Made by a program: the position numbers and the translations under genes
Part shown: piece by piece, positions 45,224 to 63,123 of the stretch
Position numbering within the stretch: position 1 is the stretch's first letter
How the letters are laid out: the number at the start of each line of letters is the position of its first letter
Source of the DNA: Bolinopsis microptera
Lineage: Eukaryota > Ctenophora > Tentaculata > Lobata > Bolinopsidae
Assembly (NCBI RefSeq): GCF_026151205.1
Contig: NC_087080.1
Coordinates: forward strand, 14,267,337 to 14,331,336
Direction: 5' to 3'
Length of the DNA: 64,000 bases
The notes under the pieces: model-generated
The model's input: only the letters and a program-made list of their open reading frames with translations
Told to the model about the DNA's origin: nothing
Database searches by the model: none

Positions 45224-48200
45224 TTAGTCTATTCCCTTGTAGAGAGTGTCAAGAACTGGTCTGTAATTCTCCCGAATGTTATGTCGTTTCTTCTTGAATG
45301 TTGGGGTGAGCATTTCGTTGTCGATGGTAAAAGCACATGATTCTGGGAGCAGCTTTATTCTTTTAACCTTATGACGTGTTATATTAGTATATTATTGTGA
45401 AAGTCGAACAAATTCTTTTATTAGAAATTATGAACAATTTAGCAAAAACAGATTCCATTTAAATTATATCAAACCTGTTCCAGACTGTTGAGTTCTTCGC
45501 TGCCTAATTTTAGCATCGAATCAAGAACGAAATCTGTAAATTCCTTGGAATCTGGTAGCTCTGAAATAGGAATGTTTGCGAATTCCTGAGGGTGAGATGC
45601 CGAGAGATACTCCTCATCTAGAACCACGACTGCTATTAACGATGATTTGATGCTTTCTCCGTAAACGTAGACCTGTGCAGAATTAGAAACAATCTGAGAT
45701 AAAGTTTGGCGGAAGAATCGAAAGTTAATTTGAAAAGAGGATCATACAAACGCAGGTACAAATGAAATCTAACAGTGTAGCATGTTCCGAACCTGTGAAA
45801 CGTAGGGAGATCGTTCATAAACTATTTCAATCTTCTCCGGGGCGATGTACTCTCCCTGGGACAGTTTGAAAATGTTCTTCTTCCTGAAGAAGATACATTT
45901 ATAGGAACTTATTATCAGCACATGTTTAAGAGACCTTATCAAATTTGTTCAGATGGAAATTTGATTATTTTTAATGAAAACAAGACAACTGCGTGTACAT
46001 TGCAAGATAACTTATCTACAAAGACTCCTATCCTGTATTAAACATGGGTAACACTCATACGAAACAAATACCTAACCTAGGTTCAATAGGTAGGTAGGTA
46101 AGAACCTTATCTAGTTATCTGATAATATTCCAGGTAAGTTGAAAGTAACACTTCAACCCCCCCGGCCCCCCCCCCCCACTTCAATAAAGCACACAAATAT
46201 TCACCTGTCGATGAGTTGTAGTCTGCCCTCAGGTGTCCAGGTGCCTATATCCCCACTGTACAGCCACCCCTCCTTCAGCACCTCTGCTGTCAGCTCCGGT
46301 TGTTTGTAGTAACCCTGGTTGGAATGGCAGTAGTGTTTTCCTCTAGTTATCTTGTTTGAGGGGCCAGTCAATTTAACGACAATTTTCAAAAATTAAACTG
46401 ACAATTTTGTATTCTCAAAAAGAAACACACTTATAACCCAACTATTACCCACTATTACCCATTATTACCCACGTGTTACCCATTATTACCCAACTATTAC
46501 CTGGAATACTCCCGGTCCCTTGACGCACACTTCTCCCTTGTTATCCTTAACAAAGTAGCCCATCTCCGGAACATCCACCAGTTTTATCTGCCACTGTGGT
46601 CCTGGCACTCCCACGTGACCTGGGTATTGGGGGGATTGTACTCAAAACTTGGCACATTTCCAACTTTAGCTCAAAACTTGGCAATTGTCCAACTTTAGTG
46701 GACCGAGTTGGAAAAGGTAACTAGAGGAAGCAGCTGATGTCTCGGTTACTAACCTGGTACAGTATCTCCAAGAAGGTAACTAGAAGAAGCAGCTGATGTC
46801 TCGGTTACTAACCTGGTACAGTATCTCCAAGAAGGTAACTAGAAGAAGCAGCTCATGTCTCGGTTACTAACCTGGTACAGTATCTCCAAGAAGGTAACTA
46901 GAAGAAGCAGCTGATGTCTCGGTTACTAACCTGGTACAGTATCTCCAAGAAGGTAACTAGAAGAAGCAGCTGATGTCTCGGTTACTAACCTGGTACAGTA
47001 TCTCCAAGAAGGTAACTAGAAGAAGCAGCTGATGTCTCGGTTACTAACCTGGTACAGTATCTCCAAGAAGGTAACTAGAAGAAGCAGCTGATGTCTCGGT
47101 TACTAACCTGGTACAGTATCTCCAAGAAGGTAACTAGAAGAAGCAGCTGATGTCTCGGTTACTAACCTGGTACAGTATCTTCAAGAAGGTAACTAGAAGA
47201 AGCAGCTGATGTCTCGGTTACTAACCTGGTACAGTATCTCCAAGAAGGTAACTAGAAGAAGCAGCTCATGTCTCGGTTACTAACCTGGTACAGTATCTCC
47301 AAGAAGGTGACTAGAAGAAGCAGCTGATGTCTCGGTTACTAACCTGGTACAGTATCTCCAAGAAGGTAACTAGAAGAAGCAGCTCATGTCTCGGTTACTA
47401 ACCTGGTACAGCATCTCCAAGAAGGTAACTAGAAGAAGCAGCTGATGTCTCGGTTACTAACCTGGTACAGTATCTCCAAGAAGGTAACTAGAAGAAGCAG
47501 CTGATGTCTCGGTTACTAACCTGGTACAGTATCTCCAAGAAGGTAACTAGAAGAAGCAGCTCATGTCTCGGTTACTAACCTGGTACAGTATCTCCAAGAA
47601 GGTAACTAGAGGAAGCAGCTGATGTCTCGGTTACTAACCTGGTACAGTATCTCCAAGAAGGTAACTAGAGGAAGCAGCTGATGTCTCGGTTACTAACCTG
47701 GTACAGTATCTCCAAGAAGGTAACTAGAAGAAGCAGCTGATGTCTCGGTTACTAACCTGGTACAGTATCTCCAAGAAGGTAACTAGAAGAAGCAGCTCAT
47801 GTCTCGGTTACTAACCTGGTACAGTATCTCCAAGAAGGTAACTAGAAGAAGCAGCTCATGTCTCGGTTACTAACCTGGTACAGTATCTCCAAGAAGGTAA
47901 CTAGAGGAAGCAGCTCATGTCTCGGTTACTAACCTGGTACAGTATCTCCAAGAAGGTAACTAGAAGAAGCAGCTCATGTCTCGGTTACTAACCTGGTACA
48001 GTATCTCCAAGAAGGTAACTAGAAGAAGCAGCTGATGTCTCGGTTTGTCCGTACCCCTCCACTATGTTCGTTCCCATGACAGCTCTGAACCATTGTATCA
48101 CGTGATCTTGCATGGGGGCTGATCCGCTCATTATTATCTGGGAGATAAAGAAGGTAGAGATTTGGTAAGAAAACGGATTTAACTATCTTAACATAGTTTC

Positions 48201-51200
48201 CGATTCAGAAAGCAAAATGATAACAAAGTTACAATTGTATTGAGTGGAAGGTGCCATTACGCCCCCCCCCCCCCCATTACAAACCTTGACTCTCCCTCCT
48301 AGTTTGTCCTGTATCTTCTTGAAGAAGAGTGTATCCCATACACTGTCGTTCCTCACAATCCCCCCTTCCACCTCCGCTACTTTACACCCAACTCCATAGT
48401 TAAACGCGTTCTGAAGAAAATATCGATTAAATTCTCACAATCCCCCCTTCCACCTCCGCTACTTTACACCCAACTCCATAGTTAAACGCGTTCTGAAGAA
48501 AATATCGATTAAATTCTCACAATCCCCCCTTCCACCTCCGCTACTTTACACCCAACTCCATAGTTAAACGCGTTCTGAAGAAAATATCGATTAAATTCTC
48601 ACAATCCCCCCTTCCACCTCAGCTACTTTACACCCAACTCCATAGTTAAACGCGTTCTGAAGAAAATATCGATTAAATTCTCACAATCCCCCCTTCCACC
48701 TCCGCTACTTTACACCCAACTCCATAGTTAAACGCGTTCTGAAGAAAATATCGATTAAATCAAGTGGTAATTCTAGAAGTAGTGATGAGCAATTCTGGGA
48801 ATTGCGATTATTGAAAAACAGTTCACTGTCTTCGATTGTCTCGAACGTTAAAATTGCACAGTAGGCGTCACAATTTAAAACAATTCAATCAAATCGTTAA
48901 CAAAATCATTTCCCCTCAGATATAATCAATTAATCAATATCATCAAAAAGATACAAGATACATACAACATGACATTGTAATACAGGGAACCTTGACAACG
49001 AAGGGTTTCAGGTCGAGCTGAGCGTTTACTTTATCGTACACTTTGTTAAGTACTCTGGGTACCGCCGGGAATATTGTGGGTTTGAGCTCCTGGATATCAT
49101 CCAGCAATAACTTCGTGTCACCTGACAGGGGAGGAGTTGAAATTAGCAAAGGAGGAGAGGGTACAGACTACACTCACTACAGCACGTGCATATTGTAGGG
49201 TACAGTGTACTACACTGTACAACACATGCATATTGTAGAGTACATCACGTGCATATTGTAGGGTACAGCAAGTGTTACAAGGAAGAACTAGCTACTAAAT
49301 GTAGTTAGTTACTGTACAGTGTACCCCTTAATACCATGAGAGAAGCGGTAACAAGAATATGCCAACTTTGTGACTAGCCGGTCTATTGAAGTATCAAATT
49401 AAAACATTATGCCTTATTGTGATATGATAATGTTACAAATCAGAGAGGTCGCTTATTGAGCAGCGAGATTATCTCACTCAGCCTGCAATCTGCATGTTTA
49501 ATAGACATGCAGGCAGAGTGGAATAGCTAATAAGGATGTGTTCTTAATATGAGTTACATAATGATATCAAGTAATAAGATAATAATAATAATACGCTATT
49601 GTACTTAATAATAATAATCTGATATCAAAAAATGACTTGTAGTAGTAGTAAATAATAATCACCTCTAGAATACCCAATCTTGCCACCCACAAACAGTACA
49701 ATACACTCCGCAACAAAGCCGTACACATGCGCCAGGGGCAGGTAGGAAATAACAGTCTGAACAGATTGTGGGGGACTGTTAACTTATTAAGTTATTACGT
49801 TATAAGGGTTACCAGCAATTATAATATGATCTCTAAAACTGATCACTAATGACTAAAATGGCTTTACAAGCACTTTGTCATGTGCGTATAGTAATCACTG
49901 CTCCCATAATAATGATTCCAATAAAGCGTTGTATTCACTACAATCCCACTGTGAAACACACAATACAGTGTGAGATATTACACACAATACAGTGTGAGAT
50001 ACAGTAATGTAATAACTAGGGTAATATGATACCAGTGTATTGTTCAGTGCATTCTTCACCAGTCATACCAATTAAATAAACAATTTAAATACTACAATAA
50101 CTGATGTGGAAATACATTACAGCTGAAACAAACGGTGAGGAGTTGAACCATGTTCGTTTTGACACGTGACACTGATCATAGGGTCTGATTGGTTAATGCT
50201 GATCAATTGCTGTCACGTGCTAGATAAAGTAAACCTCCTCACCAGATCTGTGTTCGATACTAGCCACTAGGTACAAGACTAGATACAAGACTAGATAATC
50301 TAACTCTAGTCTAGTTTAACTCACCTCTTCTTTGTTGAATTTGCCCTGGAACTTCCAGAGTTGTCTCCACTGCATCTTCATGCAGGACACGATGTTCTTG
50401 TGGGTTAGCTCGGCTCCCTTCGGTTTACCTGTAGTACCTGCAGAGGGTGTGTGTGTTAGAGAGTGTTACAGTGTGTTTTACAGTGTGTTAGAGAGTGTGT
50501 GTTACAGTATGTGTTACAGTGTGTGTTACAGTGTGTTACAGTGTGTTACAGTGTATGTTACAGTGTGTGTTACAGTGTGTTACAGTGTGTGTTACAGTGT
50601 GTGTTACAGTGTGTGTTACAGTGCGTTAGAGAGTGTGTGTTAGTGTTACAGTGTGTGTTACAGTGTGTGTTACAGTGTGTGTTACAGTGCGTGTTACAGT
50701 GCGTGTTACAGTGCGTTAGAGAGTGTGTGTTAGTGTTACAGTGTGTGTTACAGTGTGTGTTACAGTGTGTGTTACAGTGTGTGTTACAGTGCGTGTTACA
50801 GTGTGTGTTAGTGTTACAGTGTGTGTTACAGTGTGTGTTACAGTGTGTGTTAGTGTTACAGTGTGTGTTACAGTGTGTGTTACAGTGCGTGTTACAGTGC
50901 GTGTTACAGTGCGTTAGAGAGTGTGTGTTAGTGTTACAGTGTGTGTTACAGTGTGTGTTACAGTGTGTGTTACAGTGTGTGTTACAGTGCGTGTTACAGT
51001 GCGTGTTACAGTGCGTTAGAGAGTGTGTGTTAATGTTACAGTGTGTGTTACTGAATGAATAGTTACAGAGATCGGTTATTGCAGAATATAAATATCTTAC
51101 TCCTTATAATTCAGGGTGAAATCGTTGGCTTTATTTGTATATTAATCCGCATTACTTTATTATGTCTGTATTAATCTGCATTACTAATAGTCCTTAGGAC

Positions 51201-54200
51201 GCCGACGGCTTTGTTACGATGTTAAATTATTATATAATGTAGTCAACACTCAACATTCCTTACACTAAAGCTTAAAATGGGGGGAAAAGTCAGTCAGTCC
51301 TTAATTTATAAAGAAGTTTTAGATTTAACGTTTTAGCGGGTAACTTGGTGTAATTTCCTGCTAAAATGATAATAACTTACACTGATAACATGGTATTGAC
51401 TAACCATTAGTGTAACAGATAATAGCAATAGTGTAACTAACCGCTAGTGTAACAGATAATAGTGTAACTAACCACTAGTGTAACAGATAATAGCAATATC
51501 GTCAGCAGTAGGTGGAGAGGACTTAAAGTCGGTAACTTTGGAGCCCAGAGATCTGACCTCGTCCCATTCCAGACACTGAAACAGTAAAACATTTTTATAA
51601 TACATAAATAAATAAATAAAATAAATAAATAAAGTCAATTTTTACAGCACAGCAATATATATCTAAATATCAGATCCTCTGTAATCATAATGTATAAAAA
51701 AAGGAGCTTTTCTCTGTGCTGAAGGATGAATCAAGGCAGATCATGGTTCTGTTAGCAGGCCACCCTAGTTAAATAAATAAATAAATAAAGTCAATTTTTA
51801 CAGCACAGCAATATATATCTAAATATCAGATCCTCTGTAATCATAATGTATAAAAAAAGGAGCTTTTCTCTGTGCTGAAGGATGAATCAAGGCAGATCAT
51901 GGTTCTGTTAGCAGGCCACCCTAGTTAAATAAATAAATAAATAAAGTCAATTTTTACAGCACAGCAATATATATCTAAATATCAGATCCTCTGTAATCAT
52001 AATGTATAAAAAAAGGAGCTTTTCTCTGTGCTGAAGGATGAATCAAGGCAGATCATGGTTCTGTTAGCAGGCCACCCTACTGTTAGCAGGCCACCCTAAT
52101 ACCCTACATAATATACAATTTACATATAATGCATAATTTAACATACAATATACATATAATACAATATACAATATACATATAATACAATAGTATATAATTT
52201 TCAAGAATCTGCACAGAAACTTAGATAAGATTAATAAGAAAAATATTCTGAAATTCTGACTGTAACAAATTTTATTGAATGTATTAACTGAGATAGGGGA
52301 AACATATTAATATAAGCTGAGATGGGTTAATATTAAGTTAATATTAAGTCGTGTTTACATACAGCATGATGAGCATAATGTGATAGAATATGTAACCAGA
52401 TATGTATTATGCAAGACACGGGTTCTCACCTCTCGTATTATCTCATATTTTTTAACGTATTATCTTAATATTTGAGATAATTTAATATATTAAATACAGA
52501 ATGAGCCAGAAGCAACTACCCACGCGGAACCTTTAAACAACTCACGGTATTCTATTCAAAATTGTACAAACATTTCAGGGATTACAGATATGGGTGAAAC
52601 TTAGATTCCCAAAAAATTGTCAATCACAGTGTATGGCCTGCCACTCCCATTTCTTACTATTTCCACAATAATAATTTTTAATAACATTGGTTGTTGATAT
52701 AAGCAGGATATAAATGCTTTATTTCTTTTCATTTCATTAATAACAATATTTAGTAATTAGCTCAAAGCACTGCCATTATCTTATGAAAATAGTGAAAAAG
52801 AGGGAGTGGCAAGCCACGCCCATTATGACATTTCGAAATTGTACGTTATTTTCTGGAGATTTAAGTTAGCCCCATATCTCTCTTAAACCCTGTATTTGTG
52901 ACAGTGCGACAGTGTGACAGTGTGACAGTGTGACAGTGCGACAGTGTAACAGTGTGATAGTGCGACAATGCGACAGTGTGACAGTGTGACTCTAGGTGAC
53001 CTTTATATTGAGAGAGCTCAGTTTGTGGAGAGTAGAAGAGTCGGTCACGTGTCCTACTGAGATAACGGTTGTTATCTTGCACCCTTCTGTAACGAACTCT
53101 AGCAACCTCTCCACACTGCCTAGGAGGGGGGTGTTAGAATAATAATTCTTATTAATTAATAATAATAACATATACGGGTGAACCGCCCCTAAAACGTCAC
53201 CTGTTTTTTGGGCCCAGATTGCCGAGTTAGGGCTAAATTTACAGGGTTCTGAAGTGTCTAGGAATAATATTTAAACCTTTTTCTAGCCTGCCAGGAAGAT
53301 TTGGAAATTTGAAAATAAAATCAGGTACAATGTTTTTTACGTTGAAATGGAGTCACTTTTGAAACACCACCCCTAAAATGTCAACTCTATATGTGCGATA
53401 ATTACAAAATGTACAGGAGGCCTGATTTATCTTTTGTCACTAGTACTATTTGTTTTGTCTTATTAAAACATTAAGCTACTTGAAAACATTCACTCACTAA
53501 AGGAAGTACCTCAAAACCGTAATCACCCCCTAAAATGTCACGTGCACCACCCCTAAAACGTCAGCTAAAACAGGTTGTGTAGCACTCAGAATGTTGCTCA
53601 ATTATTAATTTTAACCACTTCTGGGACAAATATAACCTATTTCTGAGAGGTGTCGACCAGAATTTCTCTCTCTGTTGAAAAAAAAATGGTGGAATTTAGT
53701 CAATGTACTTTTTGTGACATTTTGGGGACTTTTTTTTAATACCCAGAACTTACGGCAAAACAGTAACTCAGTCAACAAAATTAACACCTGTAGTTAGATT
53801 ATCTAGTTATAAACTAACAATTGGCACAAAAGAAATGGATTCAATGTGATTTTAACCTTGTGCAAATTGCATGCTTTAATTGCATTTTTTGGGATTTTTA
53901 ACATCATCCTGCATTTTGGCAATTTTAGTGACCTGTAGTTAACTAATCCAACCCAGTAATCGATCTGACCTTCTCTATAGACTAGATTTGACTGCTTTTA
54001 GCAAAATTGAATGTCAAAAACTACGGTTTTTGGTACTTACTAGTTTATGGTAAACCTATGATATGCCCCCTAAAATGTCATTTTTTTCTCCCCTAAAATG
54101 TCAAATTTGTATTTTGTTCGCATGGTGTGCGATAATAGCTCTTGTTTTGGCACTTGTTAATTATTAACATCAACTATTAACGAAATGTGAGTATGCATTG

Positions 54201-57200
54201 CATCTGAGGAAATTAAGCCTGAGTAATTTGATCATGTTAAAATGACATTTTAGGGGGGATAATTATACATTTTAGGGGATGTTTATTGCAATTAATAAAA
54301 TAAAACTAATTCCTTGAGCTGCCAAAGCTTTCTAATATTACCATTAGATGCTAAATATGATGTTTAATAGGCTGGTACCTCCATTTTATGGTGCTTGTAG
54401 TCTCAAAGCCAGAATCTGATAAAATGACATTTTAGGGGGCGGCCAGGTGACATTTTAGGGGAGGGTAGTAATATTGAGTAATGTATAACTTTCCATATCT
54501 CCAGTCATATGTACAAAGTTGCTAAAATATGTAAATATCACTATCCTAGACCAAAACTGAGTTAATATTAATGAATTCCAGAGTTATAAAATTGTGCGCT
54601 TTTTTTCAAAAGTAAAAAATTCGTACAAAGTGAAAAAAATGCCCTTATGGCATCATTTAGATTCAATTTCAGGATGTGGCAGGGTCTGAATGATATTTTT
54701 TTATGTTTAGGAGTTACAAATGATTAGGTAAGATACTTTCTGAGAAGATAGGATCCAATCAATTTAGAGTGGCGTTTTAGGGGTGGGTGACATTTTAGGG
54801 GCGGTTTACCCGTAATACTCGTTATTAATTGTTAGAATTAACCAGACTGTGACTGTTATAATGTTATGAATATGATATTAATCAACTTATCATTCTGTGT
54901 AATGTACATTGTGTAGTTTCTAAATCTCCACTACAGTATTTAAAGAACCATGTACATATTATGCAGTATAATTTGTTTGTGTGTATTTCTCACAGTAAAC
55001 TTTAAAGCTTTTATCATATTATGTTGAAAGTAAAAGTTAAAATACAAGATATGTAACATCACAGTAATAAGTAGTTGTTATTGTGGTTACTATGGTTACT
55101 GGTTAGTTGTTAGTGTGGTTACTATGGTTACTGGTTAGTTGTTACTGTGGTTACTTGTTAGTTGTTACTATGGTTACTATGGTAACTGGTTAGTTGTTAC
55201 TGTGGTTACTATGGTTACTTGTTAGTTGTTACTGTGGTTACTGTGGTTACTTGTTAGTTGTTACTGTGGTTACTATGGTTACTTGTTACTATGGTTACTA
55301 TGGTTACAAATTAGTTGTTACTGTTGTTACTATGGTTACTGGTTAGTTGTTACTATGGTTACTTGTTAGTTGTTACTGTGGTTACTATGGTTACAAATTA
55401 GTTGTTACTGTTGTTACTATGGTTACTGGTTAGTTGTTACTATGGTTACTTGTTAGTTGTTACTGTGGTTACTATGGTAACTGGTTAGTTGTTACTGTGG
55501 TTACTATGGTTACTTGTTAGTTGTTACTGTGGTTACTATGGTTACTGGTTAGTTGTTACTGTGGTTACTATGGTTACTGGTTAGTTGTTACTGTGGTTAC
55601 TATGGTTACTTGTTAGTTGTAACTGTGGTTACTATGGTTACTTGTTAGTTGTTACTGTGGTTACTGGTTAGTTGTTATTATGGTTACTATGGTTACAAAT
55701 TAGTTGTTACTGTGGTTACTATAGTTACTGGTTAGTTGTTACTATAGTTACTATGGTTACAAATTAGTTGTTACTGTGGTTACTATGGTTACTGGTTAGT
55801 TGTTACTGTGGTTACTATGGTTACTTATTAGTTGTTACTGTGGTTACTATGGTTACTTGTTACTGTGGTTACTATGGTTACTTGTTAGTTGTTACTGTGG
55901 TTACTATGGTTAGTTGTTTCTTGTTAGTTGTTACTCACTGTTTTGACACACCACAGCAGTCAGGCCAGTCTCTTTCAGGATGTGACTCATCGCTTTGTCT
56001 CCTGAAAAACGGAATGTTTCATTAAACTACATTAAATCTACCGCAGTGATCCCCACGTGATGCCCTTATTAGGAGATGTAGCGATCCCAACGTGATGCCC
56101 TTATTAGGAGATGTAGCGATCCGCAGAAACTGAGTATTCTTCTGAGCTTATTTGTCTCTAGGGAGTTGTACTAAACACATCATTCTGACAAACTTCACTA
56201 GAATACATTTACACTTGAGTCAGAATGTATACACTAGTATTAAGTATAAGAGTGGGATAACGGTGGGGTCATGAAGAGAGATTATATTGTATTATATATA
56301 ATTTGTAGTAAGGAGTGTGTAACTAATAACTAATAACTAATAACTAATAACGTATATTACCTACCTAGTGTTAGGTAGAGGGGAACTGCGATATTACTGT
56401 TCCCGGTCGCCGCTTGCATTGTCATGTGCCACTGAGGCGAGTTCTTGGCGAATATACCCACCAGTGTTTCCTGGCCACCTGAAATAGTGAAATATTTGTG
56501 TCTCATGAAATAGTGAAATAGTAAATTATCGGTCTCACGAAATAGTGAAATATTAAATTATCGGTGTCTCCTGAAATAGTAAAATAGCAGTGTTCTCTAA
56601 CACTATATGTTCCAATACGATACAAAAGAGTTGTAGGTAACACGAGTAACAGATTCAAAATCTCTGCTCCCACGTTACTCTTATCTACTTCCATGTTACC
56701 TACTCAATGTAGAAAGTGAGATGACACGTCACTCTGAAGAACTACACTATATTGTATGTGTATTACACCTGATGACCTGATTCTGTATAGCTCTTTTAGG
56801 TAGAAAGAGGACAACAATCAAATCAGGGAGGGTAACACCAATACTCTATTTAAACCATTCTATCTAGTCAATCTATTTTATACACCATCCTCATGTAGCC
56901 TATATACACTCACTATACTCATGGGACAATGGACATAGCACATACTCATTATACTCATAGCACATAGCTATCATATTAATTACCCAAGCAGCATTCTCCT
57001 GTATAGGGGGGGGTGACATGTCTCCAATGTCTCCAATGTCTTTTGTCTTTTTTGAAAAGATAGGGTGCAGAGACATGTCCTGGAGACATTGGAGACATTG
57101 GAGACACAGCTTTTGGAGACATTGGAGACATTGGAGACATTGGGGACATTGGAGACATTGGAGACAAAGCTTTTGGAGACATTGGAGACATTGGAGACAC

Positions 57201-60200
57201 TGGAGACGTAGATGTATGATTGGAGAAGGAGGAGGATCTAGGAGGAGGATGACCCAGGAGGAGGACTCAGGAGGAGAAGGAGGAGGATGAGGACTCAGGA
57301 AGAGGACTGAGGAGGACTGAGAAGGAGGAGGACTGAGGAGTACTGAGGAGGATGGCTGAGGAGGATGGCTGAGGAGGATGACTGAGAGGGAGGAGGAGGA
57401 GGAGGAAGAGGAAAAGGACTGAGGAGGAGGAGTAGGACTGAGGAGGAGAAGGAGGAGGACCTAGGAGGAGGACCCAGAAGGAGGACTCAGGAGGAGGAGG
57501 AGGAGAACTCAGGAAAAGGACTGAGAAGGAGGAGGACTCAGGAGTACTGAAGAGGATGACTGAGGAGGAGGAGGAGGAGGAGAAGGACTGAGGAGGAGAA
57601 GGAGAAGGTGGAGGAACTAGGAGGAGGATGACCCAGGAGGAGGACTCAGGAGGAAGAGGAGGAGGACTCAGGAGGAGGACTTAGGAGGAATGAGAAGGAG
57701 GAGGACTCAGGAGAACTGAGGAGGAGGAGGAGGACTGAATAGGAGGAGGGGGACTGGGGAGGACTGAGGAGGAGGAGGACTGACGAGAAGGATGAGGAGG
57801 AGGACTGAGGACTGAGGACTGAGGAGGAAGAGGAGGAGGATGAAGAGGAGGAAGAGGACCCAGGAAGAGGAGGACTGAAGAGGACGATGAGGATGAGGAC
57901 TGAGGAGGAGGAGGAGGACTGAGGAGGATGGCTGAGGAGGATGACTGAGAGGGAGGAGGAGGAGGACTGAGGAGGAGGAGGAGAAGGACTGAGGAGGAGA
58001 AGGAGGAGGACCTAGGAGGAGAAGGACCCAGGAGGAGGACTCAGGAGGAGGAGGACTGACGAGAAGGATGAGGAGGAGGACTGAGGACTGAGGACTGAGG
58101 AGGAAGAGGAGGAGGATGAAGAGGAGGAAGAGGACCCAGGAAGAGGAGGACTGAAGAGGACGATGAGGATGAGGACTGAGGAGGAGGAGGAGGACTGAGG
58201 AGGATGGCTGAGGAGGATGACTGAGAGGGAGGAGGAGGAGGACTGAGGAGGAGGAGGAGAAGGACTGAGGAGGAGAAGGAGGAGGACCTAGGAGGAGAAG
58301 GACCCAGGAGGAGGACTCAGGAGGAGGACTCAGGAGAAGGACTCAGGAAAACTGAAGAGTGAATAGGAGGAGGAGGGGGAGGACCTAGGAGGAGGAGGAC
58401 TGAGGAGTACTGAAGAGGATGACTGAGGAGGAGAGGAGGAGAAGGACTGAGGAGGAGAAGGAGAAGGTGGAGGAACTAGGAGGAGGATGAACCAGGAGGA
58501 GGACTCAGGAGGAAGAGGGGGAGGACTCAGGAGGAGGACTTAGGAGGAATGAGAAGGAGGAGGACTGAGGAGAACTGAGGAGGAGGAGGAGGACTGAATA
58601 GGAGGAGGAGGGGGACTGGGGAGGACTGAGAAGGAGGAGGACTGACGAGAAGGATGAGGAGGAGGACTGAGGACTGAGGACTGAGGAGGAAGAGGAGGAT
58701 GAAGAGGAGGAAGAGGACCCAGGAGGAGGAGGACTGAAGAGGACGATGAGGATGAGGACTGAGGAGGAGGAGGACTGAGGAGGATGGCTGAGGAGGATGA
58801 CTGAGAGGGAGGAGGAGGAGGACTGAGGAGGAGGAGGAGAAGGACTGAGGAGGAGAAGGAGGAGGACCTAGGAGGAGGAGGACCCAGGAGGAGGACTCAG
58901 GAGGACTCAGGAGAAGGACTCAGGAAAACTGAGGAGTGAATAGGAGGAGGAGGGGGAGGACCTAGGAGGAGGAGGACCCAGAAGGAGGACTGAGGAGGAG
59001 GAGAACTCAGGAAGAGGACTGAGGAGGACTGAGAAGGAGGAGGACTGAGGAGTACTGAAGAGGATGACTGAGGAGGAGGAGGAGGAGAATGACTGAGGAG
59101 GAGAAGGAGAAGGTGGAGGAACTAGGAGGAGGATGAACCAGGAGGAGGACTCAGGAGGAAGAGGGGGAGGACTCAGGAGGAGGACTTAGGAGGAATGAGC
59201 AGGAGGAGGACTGAGGAGAACTGAGGAGGAGGAGGAGGAGGACTGAATAGGAGGAGGAGGACTGACGAGAAGGATGAGGAGGAGGACTGAGGACTGAGGA
59301 GGACTGAGGAGGAAGAGGAGGAGGATGAAGAGGAGGAAGAGGACCCAGGAGGAGAAGGACTGAAGAGGAGGATGAGGATGAGGACTGAGGAGGAGGAGAA
59401 GGACTGAGGAGGACTGAGGAGGATGGCTGAGGAGGATGACTGAGAGGGAGGAGGAGGACTGAGGAGGAGGAGGAGAAGGACTGAGGAGGAGAAGGAGGAG
59501 GACCTAGGAGGAGGAGGACCCAGGAGGAGGACTCAGGAGGAGGACTCAGGAGGAGGAGGAGGACTCAGGAGGAAGACTCAGGAAAACTGAGGAGGAGGAG
59601 GAGGAGTGAATGGGAGGAGGAGGGGGACTGGGGAGGACTGAGGAAGAGGAGGACTAAGGAGAAGGATGAGGAGGAGGACTGAGGAGGAGGATGAGGACTG
59701 AGGAGGAGGACTGAGGAGTACTGATGAGGATGGCTGAGGAGGACGGCTGAGGAGGATGGCTGAGGAGGATGACTGAGGAGGATGACTGAGAGGGAGGAGG
59801 AGGAGGAGAAGGACTGAGAAGGAGGAGGAGGAGGAGAAGGAGGAGGACCTAGGAGGAGGAGGACTCAGGAAGAGGAGGACTCAGGAGGAGGACTCAGGAA
59901 GAGGACTCAGGAGGAGGACTGAGAAGGAGGAGGACTGAGGAGAACTGAGGAGGAGGAGGATGAGGACTGAATAGGAGGGGGGACTGGGGGAGGACTGAGG
60001 AGGAGGGGGACTTGGGGAGGACTGAGGAGGAGGAGGAAGACTGACGAGAAAGATGAGGAGGAGGACTGAGGAGGAGGACTGATGATTGAGGAGGAAGAGG
60101 AGGAGGATGAAGAGGAGTAGGAGGACTCAGGAGGAGGAGGACTCAGGAGGAGGAGGAGAACGACTGAGGAGGACTGAGGAGGAAGAGGAGGAGGAGGAGG

Positions 60201-63123
60201 AGGAGGAGGAGGAGGAGGAGGAGGAGGAGGAGGCTGTGTCTCCAATGTCTCCAAAAGCTGTGTCTCTAATGTCCCCAATGTCCCAAATGTCCCCAATGTC
60301 TCCAATGTCTCCAAAAGCTGTGTCTCCAATGTCTCCAAAAGCTGTGTCTCTAATGTCCCCAATGTCCCAAATGTCCCAAATGTCTCCAATGTCTCCAAAA
60401 GCTGTGTCTCCAATGTCTCCAATGTCTCCAATGTCTCCAATGTCTTTGTCTTTTTCGAAAAGATAAGGTGCGGGAGACATTGGAGACATGTCACCCCCCC
60501 CCCTGTATAGTATAGTAAACCAATCAGCGCTATATTTTAAGTTCCAATATTGCACCTGCTGTTACATCTGATCAACCAGCGTTCAGCGGTGTAGAGCGTG
60601 TAGTGCGAAAATATTGAAAATATTCGGTCGATCAGCTTAAATATTAGTATCTTATACTGAACTAGATAGTATCTGTATATACTATTCAGTCCAAAGGAAG
60701 GATATATAGTATAGCAATCAGAAAACTTTCAAAAATCTCATGACAATGGGGGAAACCTAAACTCTGAAAAGTTCCAACTTATTATATATATAGAAATATG
60801 TGCTTGTACCTCTTATAATGACATTCACGGTCTACTTACCCTGTAGACCCAGCTGAACGAGCCCACATCTGAAGTCCTGTATCTGTCTGTCCCCCCTCCC
60901 CCACTTACCCTGTAGACCCAGCTGAACGAGCCCACATCTGAAGTCCTGTATCTGTCTGTCTCCCCTCCCCACTTACCCTGTAGACCCAGCTGAACGAGCC
61001 CACATCTGAAGTCCTGTATCTGTCTGTCTCCCCTCCCCCCACTTACCCTGTAGACCCAGCTGAACGAGCCCACATCTGAAGTCCTGTATCTGTCTGTCCC
61101 CCCTCCCCCCACTTACCCTGTAGACCCAGCTGAACGAGCCCACATCTGAAGTCCTGTATCTGTCTGTCCCCCCTCCCCCACTTACCCTGTAGACCCAGCT
61201 GAACGAGCCCACATCTGAAGTCCTGTATCTGTCTGTCCCCCCTCCCCCACTTACCCTGTAGACCCAGCTGAACGAGCCAAAGTCCCCTGTATCTTGTTGT
61301 GTCTTCCCGCTATTCCCCCCCCCCCCCCCCCCCCCCCACCCCCCCCCACCCACTTACCCACTTACCCCCCAAACCCCACTTCTTCCACCCCACCCACTTC
61401 CCCCCACTCCACACTCCCCCCACCCCCCACCCCCCACACTTCCCACTCCCACTTCCCCACTTCCCACTCCCCCCCCACTCCCCCCCCCCCCCCCCCCCAC
61501 CCACTCCACCCCCACTTTAACACTGTAGTAGACCCGCTGGCTGCAGCTGAACGAAGTCCACATCTGAACTGAAAAAGTCTGTATCTGTTTTCTGGTCTCC
61601 CGCTTATCCCCCCCACCCCCACTTACCCACCCCCCACTTCCCTGTTTAGACCCAGTGAAACGAAAAGCCCACTTCTGAAAGTCCTGTATCTGTCTGTCCC
61701 CCCCCCCCCCCCACTCCCCCCCCACTTCCCCCCCCCCCCCCCCAACTTTACCCTGGTTGACCCAGCTGAACGATAGGCCCCCACTTCTGAAGTCCGGTAT
61801 CTGTTCTGTTCCCCGCTATCCCCCCCCCCCACTTACCCTGTTAGTACCCAGACTGAACGAGCCCACTTCTGAAGTCCTGTATCTGTCTGTCCCCGCTAAT
61901 CCCCCCCCCCCACTTACCCTGTACGATCCCAGCTGAACGAGCCAATTCTGAAGTCCTGTATCTGTACTGTCTCCCCCCCCCCCCACTTCCTGTAGACCAG
62001 CTGAACGAGCCCAATCTGGAAGTCTGTATCTGTCTGTTCCCTCCACCATTACCTGGAGGACCAGTGAACGAGCCCACATCTGAACGTCTGTATCTGTCTG
62101 TCTCCCTCCCCCCACTTTACCCTGTTGACCAGCTGAACGAGCCCACATCTGAAGTCCGTATCTTCTGGTTCTCCTCTCCCCCCACTTACCTGTAGGACCC
62201 GCTGAACGAGGACCCACATCTGAAGTCCTGTATCTGTCTGTCTCCCCTCCCCCCACTTACCCTGTAGACCAGCTGGAACGAGCCCACATCTGACGTCCGT
62301 ATATGTCTGTCTCCCCCCCCCCCCAACTTACCCTGTAGACCCAGCTGAACGAGCCCACATTGAAGTCCTGTATCTGTCTGTCCCCTGCTGTCCAGGATAT
62401 CCACCTATAGGGACTAGCTCCTTCTCGGTAACCGAATAGTTTACCCCTGAAGAGAGGATGGTGAGTAATAAGACAACTGACTAACTTGATAAGTGAGATA
62501 TCGGTTCTCTCCCTGACATAATTCTGGTAACATGCCTGTAATCCAGCGTACCATCTAGATGGCTTCTTAGTGTGGACGATAAACGTAATAAAGTACTCCT
62601 GAAAAAGCACACCCCTATCCTTGAAGTCTATTTTAATATAATTCGTGTAAAACGTTAAAAATGTTGCCCAATCAGATCAATTTGATTTGTACAAGGATTA
62701 TATCCTGTGCATATGTTTCTACTCTCAGCACACTGTGCATGTCATTGAATAACATTTCAATTTAATTAAGAGTTGAATCCAAATTTTACAAATATGGCCT
62801 CACGTTTTACACGAATTATATTAAAATAGACTTCAAGAATAGGGGTGTGCTTATTCGGGAGTACTGTATTACTTTATCGGTCACATGAGCCTATAGGATT
62901 AAAAAATACCAACCACATATTTTATCACATTTCAATATTGAACTAATTCAGCGCTGGCTGGTTGCCAAGTTTTTTGGTTGCCAAGTTTACCAACTCACGA
63001 GGGGTTGATTTCGAGTCCTTCCTCGAACAGGTTCCTAATGGTAGTTATGGAGGACTTAGTGCTGGATAAAACAGTCTCATCCTCGTCAAATATACTCTTT
63101 CTGTGTGTCTCGACACCGTCCAC
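45224..63123 (-). CDS. long-chain acyl-CoA synthetase, 5' partial
   Basis: Activates long-chain fatty acids to acyl-CoA via an acyl-AMP intermediate, on ER, peroxisome or mitochondrial membranes. Minus-strand exons: 63123-62999, 62446-62332, 56478-56365, 56001-55939, 53119-53001, 51575-51473, 50437-50325, 49756-49663, 49121-48991, 48410-48285, 48137-47993, 46619-46501, 46314-46205, 45883-45793, 45672-45475, 45367-45224. They total 1910 nt, one short of 637 codons: exon 62446-62332 lacks 1 nt. Motifs in order: LVGIFAKNSPQW, VPLYLTLG, the AMP-binding loop YTSG/TTGKPKG across an intron, SYLPLAHV, PTIFPAVPRVLNK, EGYGQTE, GYYKQPE, WLYSGDIG, LIDR/KKNIFKLSQGEYIAPEK and the C-terminal lysine region LTPTFKKKR. 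The N-terminal membrane anchor exon is outside the window. The match is to animal ACSL1/5/6- or ACSL-like enzymes; the subtype is not assigned. Confidence 0.93.
46440..46500 (-). repeat. GTAATA donor-like array at ACSL exon end
   Basis: On the minus strand the exon ends GTATTCCAG and continues GTAATAGTTGG, GTAATAATGG, GTAACACGTGG and so on: about six 10-11-bp units, each starting with a GTAA donor-like tetramer. The array begins at the splice donor itself. Confidence 0.75.
46712..48045 (-). repeat. 59-bp x ~22 minisatellite carrying ACSL exon end and donor
   Basis: Exact 59-bp period from 46741 to 48039 (22 intervals) with few substitutions. On the minus strand each unit is 53 bp of exon end (AACCGAGACATCAGCTGC to GATACTGTACCAG, encoding TETSAASSSYLLGDTVP) followed by 6 bp of intron (GTTAGT). 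The most upstream copy in the transcript is joined to the rest of the exon (EGYGQTE). The reading is completed by the exon at 46619 (GHVGVPG), which proves the junction. The other copies lie in the intron. Confidence 0.95.
48352..48760 (-). repeat. 82-bp x 5 repeat carrying ACSL acceptor
   Basis: AAACGCGTTCTGAAG recurs at 48402, 48484, 48566, 48648 and 48730, a period of exactly 82 bp. On the minus strand each unit is 23 bp of intron tail (ending TTTTCTTCAG) and 59 bp of exon head (encoding NAFNYGVGCKVAEVEGGIV). Only the last copy in transcript order continues into the complete exon. Confidence 0.93.
49140..49270 (-). repeat. GCATATTGTAGGGTACA repeats
   Basis: Three to four copies of CACGTGCATATTGTAGGGTA or variants in the intron upstream (in transcript sense) of ACSL exon 49121, beginning about 40 bp from the acceptor. 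Confidence 0.6.
50448..51052 (-). repeat. 12-bp GTTACAGTGTGT minisatellite
   Basis: About 50 units of GTTACAGTGTGT or GTTACAGTGCGT with interspersed GTTAGAGAGTGTGTG blocks that form a higher-order period. The array ends about 10 bp from the acceptor of ACSL exon 50437-50325, which encodes TTGKPKG. Long open frames across it are artefacts of the repeat. Confidence 0.95.
51400..51497 (-). repeat. 31-37-bp x 3 repeat carrying ACSL exon end and donor
   Basis: Three copies of TAACCACTAGTGTAACAGAT plus AATAG(CAAT)AGTG. On the minus strand each holds the exon end (ATTATCTGTTACACTAGTG, encoding IICYTSG) and the GTTAGT donor. The junction is fixed by the next exon, which completes G and continues TTGKPKG. 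The copies at 51400-51465 lie in the intron. Confidence 0.85.
51601..52076 (-). repeat. 156-bp x 3 tandem repeat in ACSL intron
   Basis: AAAGTCAATTTTTACAGCAC recurs at 51631, 51787 and 51943. Units include a TAAATAAATAAA head and end AGCAGGCCACCCTA. The copies are almost identical. The array begins about 20 bp from the acceptor of exon 51575. Confidence 0.93.
52632..52822. mobile_element. ~190-bp miniature TIR element
   Basis: GGCCTGCCACTCCCATTTCT with ACTATTTCC at the left, and the complement (ATAGTGAAAAAGAGGGAGTG, GCAAGCC) at the right. A lone related end, AAAGAGGGAGTGGAAGACCA, is at 10528. The target duplication is not resolved. Confidence 0.5.
52890..52998 (-). repeat. GTCACACT array at ACSL donor
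   Basis: On the minus strand exon 53119-53001 ends ATATAAAG and the intron begins GTCACCTAGA, then GTCACACT, GTCACACT, GTCGCATT and so on: about twelve 8-9-bp units, each beginning with the donor-like GTCAC or GTCGC. Confidence 0.85.
53173..54814. mobile_element. 1.64-kb TIR element with symmetrical motif arrays
   Basis: Terminal inverted repeats TACGGGTGAACCGCCCCTAA and its near-complement (about 29 bp, two mismatches), flanked by ATA on both sides, a possible 3-bp duplication as in Harbinger-type elements. CCCCTAAAA(T/C)GTCA occurs six times forward in the left half (53183, 53370, 53527, 53550, 54067, 54090) and six times in reverse in the right half (54243, 54266, 54425, 54448, 54770, 54788). 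No transposase frame. It lies in an ACSL intron. Confidence 0.82.
55062..55930 (-). repeat. GTTACTGTGGTTACTATGG minisatellite at ACSL donor
   Basis: About 870 bp of 12-31-bp phrases (GTTACTGTGGTTACTATGG, then TTACTGGTTAGTT). On the minus strand the array starts at the donor of exon 56001-55939: AAAACA, then GTGAGTAACAACTAACAAG, then CAGTAACAACTAAC units, so the donor itself resembles one repeat unit. Confidence 0.9.
56484..56590 (-). repeat. ~40-bp x 3 repeat of ACSL acceptor tract
   Basis: On the minus strand TATTTCACTATTTCAG, GAGACACCGATAATTTA-type units recur about three times. The last ends as the acceptor (CACTATTTCAG) of exon 56478-56365. At least one upstream copy also has an intact TATTTCAG. 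On the donor side of the same exon a TTATTAG array starts about 20 bp into the intron. Confidence 0.75.
57007..60501. mobile_element. 3.5-kb TIR element with polypurine minisatellite core
   Basis: The ends are inverted: GGGGGGGTGACATGTCTCC at the left and its complement at the right, flanked by a direct repeat CCTGTATAG (56998-57006 and 60502-60510), an 8-9-bp target duplication of the hAT type. Inside each end are arrays of GGAGACATT or its complement, with a conserved GTCTTTTT..AAAAGATA.GGTGC segment. The core, about 57220-60235, is almost pure GGAGGA-type purine repeat with GACTGAGGA, GACCCAGGA and GACTCAGGA variants and higher-order repeats of several hundred bases. No transposase. Open frames here are repeat artefacts. 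Confidence 0.82.
60830..62400 (-). repeat. ~69-bp x ~19 minisatellite carrying ACSL exon end and donor
   Basis: On the minus strand each unit is ACAGACAGATACAGGACTTC, then AGATGTGGGCTCGTTCAGC, then TGGGTCTACAGG, then GTAAGTGGGGGAGGGG. The exon part encodes RQIQDFRCGLVQLGLQ in the frame required by the flanking exons; the intron part is the donor plus a G-rich tail. The copy joined to unique exon sequence is at 62332-62446. Copies at 60830-61270 are nearly perfect, while those at 61300-62320 carry many small indels and long poly-C runs. Several open frames across it are artefacts. Confidence 0.93.
62447..62998 (-). other. ACSL intron
   Basis: Intron between the first two visible ACSL exons. 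It holds an inverted pair around 62600-62860 (CACACCCCTATTCTTGAAGT-like sequence and its complement, with TTTTAATATAATTCGTGTAA), probably another small TIR element of about 250 bp. Confidence 0.55.

Follow-up and report, generated by a model that had tools for sequence, protein, structure and literature searches.

How does the spliceosome settle on one junction if the end of an exon, together with its splice donor, is present 22 times in tandem? This question is raised by an acyl-CoA ligase gene of the lobate ctenophore Bolinopsis microptera, which lies on the minus strand of a 64,000-nucleotide stretch of contig NC_087080.1 (positions 14,267,337 to 14,331,336). The whole stretch is referred to here as the window, and positions without a prefix are those of the window.

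The gene and its 59-bp array

Sixteen exons of the gene, E_a to E_p, were assigned to the minus strand at 45224..63123; the 5' end of the gene is outside the window or not among these exons. Exon E_k (47993..48137, minus strand; 145 nt) reads ...EGYGQTETSAASSSYLLGDTVPG, with a final CCAG that precedes donor 1. The intron that starts at this first donor is 1373 nt long (46620..47992, minus strand) and leads to the next exon, E_l (46501..46619, minus strand), which has the acceptor CCCAG and starts with HVGVPGPQWQIKLVDV.... When E_c to E_p were joined via the first donor of the 59-bp array at E_k and the last acceptor of a second array at E_j, an open frame of 555 codons was obtained. Indeed, an NCBI protein of B. 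microptera (P0004), annotated as long-chain-fatty-acid--CoA ligase 1-like, covers 100% of the joined-exon query and has the same joints, among them that at the first donor of the 59-bp array. P0004 is nearly identical to the window product and contains a match to the AMP-binding family PF00501 (E 2.9e-77). At the sole position at which the window gene and its near paralogue differ in residue, P0004 has the residue of the paralogue, and the entry, parts of which may be a computed prediction, is probably the paralogue's protein. The original prediction of an acyl-CoA synthetase-type gene (long-chain acyl-CoA ligase) was borne out, and the exon-intron junction that it had placed at the end of E_k is supported by the spliced frame, by the coverage of P0004 and by an intron at the equal position in a distant paralogue. 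The N terminus of P0004 is short (MIAMCYEY), and matching codons are found in the window just 5' of E_c, at about 56970; the starts of the window gene and the P0004 gene may differ or may be mispredicted.

The repeat at the end of E_k is real. Tandem Repeats Finder (TRF) reported it at 46714-48045 (minus strand) with a period of 59, 22.6 copies and 98% matches, and each unit combines the terminal 53 nt of E_k with the six intronic nucleotides GTTAGT. Both the repeat of about 59 bp at an exon end and its composition of 53 + 6 bp, with a donor repeated in tandem, had been predicted, and both agree with the 22 complete units found here, all of which terminate in CAG/GTTAGT on the minus strand. 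Copy 1 (48045-47987) is the end of E_k itself with the initial six bases of the intron; its exonic part is AACCGAG...ACTGTACCAG, followed by GTTAGT. The 23rd copy begins at 46747, is incomplete and no longer has a donor. The number of equivalent donors is therefore 22 (1 genuine and 21 intronic) rather than the "some 23" first proposed.

The copies are near-uniform, with a mean of 1.0 difference per 59 bp, and bear distinct, non-periodic variants. CAGGTTAGT is present in 22 of 23 copies in the window and in 24 of 25 copies in the near paralogue, and none of the 21 intronic donors in the complete window copies is damaged. One of the variants is a change from C to G at unit position 12, which creates a TGA in the frame of the exon. 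In the window, 8 of the 21 intronic copies have it, as do 2 of the 24 intronic copies of the paralogue, again in the same frame, but neither of the two exonic copies does. Since the nonsense change is confined to intronic units, the intronic copies are free of reading-frame constraint, as would be expected of intron sequence from unit 2 on.

Productive sites at the donor and acceptor arrays

Read-through past donor 1 gives GGT TAG immediately, and the product ends ...DTVPG, followed by two stops. Since all exons that end at a later donor contain this stop after DTVPG, every later donor is unproductive. Thus, a first-donor rule is indeed required, as had been suggested. The argument that only the first donor restores the frame because 59 cannot be divided by 3 was right as to the donor, but the reason was incomplete: donors 4, 7 and 10 add a length that is a multiple of 3, yet they also stop at GGT TAG.

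A mirror-image situation is found one exon upstream. An array with a unit of 82 bp (48352..48760, minus strand; TRF) presents five identical acceptors, the AACGCG starts of which are at 48738, 48656, 48574, 48492 and 48410. The last acceptor (48410), which gives an E_j of 126 nt (48285..48410, minus strand), keeps the frame; with both of the other acceptors that were tested, the first and the second-last, stops appear. At the donor array, use of the first donor results in an exon of 145 nt and an intron of 1373 nt, versus an exon of 1384 nt and an intron of 134 nt with the last donor. At the acceptor array, the last acceptor gives an exon of 126 nt and an intron of 580 nt, versus 454 nt and 252 nt with the first. 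The productive option is thus the shortest exon and a long intron at both arrays, in keeping with exon definition, which would probably be the rule by which the sites are chosen. The donor motif is the same in 22 of 22 copies, and donor 1 is set apart only by its position and by the exon upstream of it. A mark in RNA structure was not apparent; the predicted mean unpaired probability of donor 1 (0.33) differed little from the values for the other 21 donors (0.18-0.31).

Two further junctions of the gene carry arrays. The end of E_f (...ICYTSG, followed by gttagt) is repeated in about 3 copies of 31-37 bp (51399..51498, minus strand; TRF), and the end of E_b in units of about 69-75 bp (60834..62382, minus strand; TRF), in which 14 GCTCGTT cores and 11 CAGGGTAAGT donors were counted. 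The E_b array is noisy, with indels and G-run interruptions; the noise is in the copies adjoining the exon, and the first copy is one base short compared with the clean copies. In the frame of the exon, a clean 69-bp copy has no stop, so that 23 residues could be gained through use of a later donor. In total, four junction arrays are present in the gene (E_k donor, E_j acceptor, E_f donor and E_b donor). Under a model of random placement of 13 repeat units in the collapsed gene, 2.4 were expected to cross a junction, versus the 4 distinct arrays seen, which is no clear excess; the 13 units of this model are not independent, because TRF gives the E_b array in several rows. Repeats of other kinds were also seen in the gene. 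In some introns, short tandem repeats set in only a few bases from the donor (55072-55926 and 46432-46501), and the intron between E_b and E_c contains some 3 kb of simple repeat rich in GGA (57222-60233), with TGGAGACAT repeats at one side and TGTCTCCAA repeats at the other.

Origin of the array and competing explanations

A near paralogue, 106 kb from the window gene (C9:14204501-14220500; L005/L006), has a 59-bp array of its own with 25 copies, 24 intact donors and its own variants. Copy numbers are unequal between the two loci: there are 22 donors in the window versus 24 in the paralogue, and 5 acceptors versus 2. From E_c to E_p, the two genes differ at 22 positions, 21 of them synonymous and 1 nonsynonymous, and at a dN/dS of 0.013 both copies are evidently under strong purifying selection. 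Over the 16 kb compared, homology ends at window position 57005, and E_a and E_b were not found in the paralogue within this 16-kb stretch. The paralogue also contains an inserted stretch of about 2.3 kb (L005, 6700-8980) that is missing from the window copy; it is coding-like, has TGGTCATTAA repeats at both ends and is perhaps a transposon. A distant paralogue (L004, C9:12.758 Mb) is 80% identical over 147 bp and has an intron at the equal position, with the donor GTTCGA and a length of about 124 nt. This intron does not contain the 59-bp array but has another tandem repeat, of 8 bp and 8.5 copies. Since the intron exists there without the array, the 59-bp array most likely arose within a pre-existing intron. 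In the near paralogue the array terminates in ...GGTTAGTAACTAGATC, so that AAC stands on the intronic side of the joint, and the exonic side of the unit starts with AAC as well; a joint at this shared AAC would be the simplest reading.

We consider it very likely that the array is a mirage, the name given in amphioxus Adh3 to tandem repeats that cross an exon-intron boundary (PMC3087553, PMC3902484), that its extra copies are spliced out as intron and that donor 1 is used through exon definition. The minisatellite would have expanded through a tandem duplication that spanned the exon-intron junction. In the initial duplication, the start of the intron (GTTAGTAAC) would have been fused to the AAC that opens the last 53 nt of the exon, at a microhomology of 3 nt, and slippage or unequal exchange would then have multiplied the unit. 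The spliceosome would pair the acceptor of E_k with the nearest downstream donor, which is donor 1, and copies 2-22 would be harmless intron that is spliced away. At the acceptor array the mirror image of this rule would apply, and the last acceptor, nearest to the donor of E_j, would be chosen.

Could the array instead serve as a regulatory decoy? Some transcripts would then take later donors, gain a stop and be degraded, and the copy number would tune the output of the gene. The stop reached from every later donor and the intactness of all 21 intronic donors would suit such a role, but recently homogenized copies that differ by a mean of 1.0 position per 59 bp predict intact donors just as well. 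Moreover, the distant paralogue does without the array and the copy number is unequal between the two loci, so that we regard a decoy as unlikely. Even less probable is a choice by intron definition, in which the last donor would be preferred and the gene would be largely silenced. The 134-nt intron that would result, instead of one of 1373 nt, is close in length to the intron of about 124 nt in the distant paralogue, but the mRNA would stop after DTVPG, and this conflicts with the strong purifying selection on both copies.

The two remaining explanations, a misassembly and a pseudogene, both appear highly improbable. The nearby E_b array (61.3-62.4 kb) is noisy with indels, and the assembly of arrays in this region may be imperfect, so that the copy number could have been inflated. 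However, individual copies at E_k differ in variants that follow no period, and the paralogue at a distance of 106 kb carries an array of 25 copies with other variants. An assembly artefact is thus unlikely, and the count of copies as such is that of a single assembly. If the array had ruined the gene, correct splicing would be under no selection, and the loss of one base in the first copy of the E_b array of the window gene might point in this direction; the open frame of 555 codons and the dN/dS of 0.013 against the paralogue argue against it.

Junction arrays in the genome and in other organisms

The mirage in the window is not unique, since the same gene and other genes have junction arrays. 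CAGGTRAGT occurs 4370 times genome-wide versus 2576 times for the reversed control. Triplets of this motif with gaps of 25-55 bases were found 780 times versus 4 times in the reversed control, the 4 being from one array, and triplets of CAGGTAAGT alone 447 times versus 0; many of these triplet matches come from single large arrays. For CAGGTGAGT, a triplet search at gaps of 38-68 found 20 matches, spread over 6 arrays, versus 16 in the reversed control and, thus, no excess. Counted over the first 100 places per search, there are at least 16 arrays (9 + 7) among the places listed in two triplet searches, and the heads of all of them were inspected (L044 continues L036). In 5 of the 16 arrays among the matches listed, the unit is an open exon end plus donor (L034, L036, L037, L041 and L042). 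Two of these exon ends are backed by homology. L036 is an importin-7 exon, with an alignment to PDB 6n88 (E 8e-15) that comes within two residues of the exon end, and L042 (C10:4506350-4506930) encodes a homeodomain (E 2.7e-13), with an alignment that reaches the exon end; in the latter, NLAQIQVQ and the donor are repeated in a unit of 35 bp, with matches to about 4507556. The other three are less certain. L037 is WD40-like, with E values of 1e-4 and 0.0056 that are both below the curated cut-offs and a best match to PDB WD-repeat chains, over the whole chain, of E 9.4e-10. L041 is Ig-like by eye, and a search of its exon gave no Pfam match. L034 (C3:5823300-5823950) has a 46-bp unit, an exon end plus GTGAGT, after an open exon ...RQLEMFNMFSAVFDMKCQ that was called by frame and splice signals and gave no Pfam match; from match positions, this array is estimated at about 100 copies and extends to about 5828486, which makes it larger than the array in the window.

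As to the other arrays, those in L029 and L035 begin in the intron immediately past an exon end, and that in L032 lies next to the acceptor of an exon that is on the opposite strand and resembles gephyrin (E 7e-25). In L028, L030, L031, L033, L038, L039, L040 and L043, an exon was not seen or the head of the array was not reached. The array of L039 (C8:7268300-7268920), a stretch in which no exon was seen, consists of 37-bp units TTATTTCAG/GTAAGT, that is, an acceptor fused to a donor, which resembles the motif of a recursive splice site. The window and a 200-kb sample (20 stretches, each of 10 kb, at chosen round coordinates) together have 65 array units with a period >=25; a donor-like motif was found in one of them, versus 1.01 expected from mononucleotide shuffles. 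This unit is the 59-bp array itself, with 0 from the sample, and genome-wide seeding of arrays at donors was not apparent at the 200-kb sample size. It is conceivable, although we think it rather doubtful, that minisatellites in ctenophores repeatedly start from splice junctions. Arrays of up to about 100 identical donors would then have built up in many genes, either through a mechanism coupled to transcription or splicing or because duplications of junctions are simply tolerated under strict exon definition.

The closest likeness is to the mirages of amphioxus. These also occur in the globins BflGb6 and BflGb9, in troponin C and in PGBD5, at 5' and 3' splice sites, with variable copy number and a repeated AG/GT; BflGb6 has 6 and 3 units in two haplotypes, PGBD5 has three units of 108 bp, and somatic instability is reported for the Adh3 mirage (PMC3087553, PMC3902484). 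Like them, the ctenophore units span an exon-intron boundary and repeat the AG/GT signals, and both the 5' and the 3' boundary are hit in one gene, at the E_k donor and the E_j acceptor. The variation in length (22 versus 24 donors, 5 versus 2 acceptors) is here between paralogues, not alleles. Adh3 data and RT-PCR of globins suggest that amphioxus mirages leave regular splicing undisturbed (PMC3087553), and the open frame and the NCBI protein would fit the same in the ctenophore gene. What differs is the phylum, the higher copy number (22, and an estimated 100 or so at C3:5823835-5828486) and the presence of donor and acceptor arrays together in one gene.

Other systems are less similar, as far as the available portions of the sources go. 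Introns can be gained via tandem duplication of an AGGT-containing sequence (PMC4974935), which likewise repeats splice signals in a gene, but the ctenophore intron appears older than its array, judging from the distant paralogue, and a new intron was not seen. Internal tandem repeats in human segmental duplications alter the gene structure of paralogues, and half of the variable ones are coding (PMC2812944), whereas the proteins of the two ctenophore copies differ at one residue only. The intronic minisatellite CeRep25B of C. elegans (PMC4039745) and the 38-bp repeats in intron 6 of TERT, which are more than 1 kb from the junctions (PMC3948165), are linked to alternative splicing; unlike the ctenophore array, neither is described there as copies of an exon end plus donor. 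Short direct repeats near splice sites are reported in the text seen of PMC11782384, and the part seen of PMC2206037 has nothing on junction-spanning arrays. Among the matches listed from the open-licence literature, we found no report of junction arrays in ctenophores and none of mirages by that name outside the cephalochordates. Arrays of this kind are known but rarely described; their presence in this phylum, their copy numbers here and a mirror-image pair within a single gene had, as far as we found, not been reported.

Lang and Spritz in 1983 and Reed and Maniatis in 1986 reportedly tested splice-site choice on constructs with few identical sites. The ctenophore gene provides a natural setting, with 22 identical donors after one acceptor and 5 identical acceptors before one donor. 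Its conserved protein demands the first donor and the last acceptor, and the gene would lend itself to asking how the spliceosome picks among identical sites and how strictly the nearest pair is preferred. Ctenophores are one of the earliest-branching animal lineages, and the extension of mirages from cephalochordates to a ctenophore would mean that they are either old or arise repeatedly. If splice junctions do seed minisatellites in ctenophores, the genome would be a natural catalogue of splice-site competition experiments.
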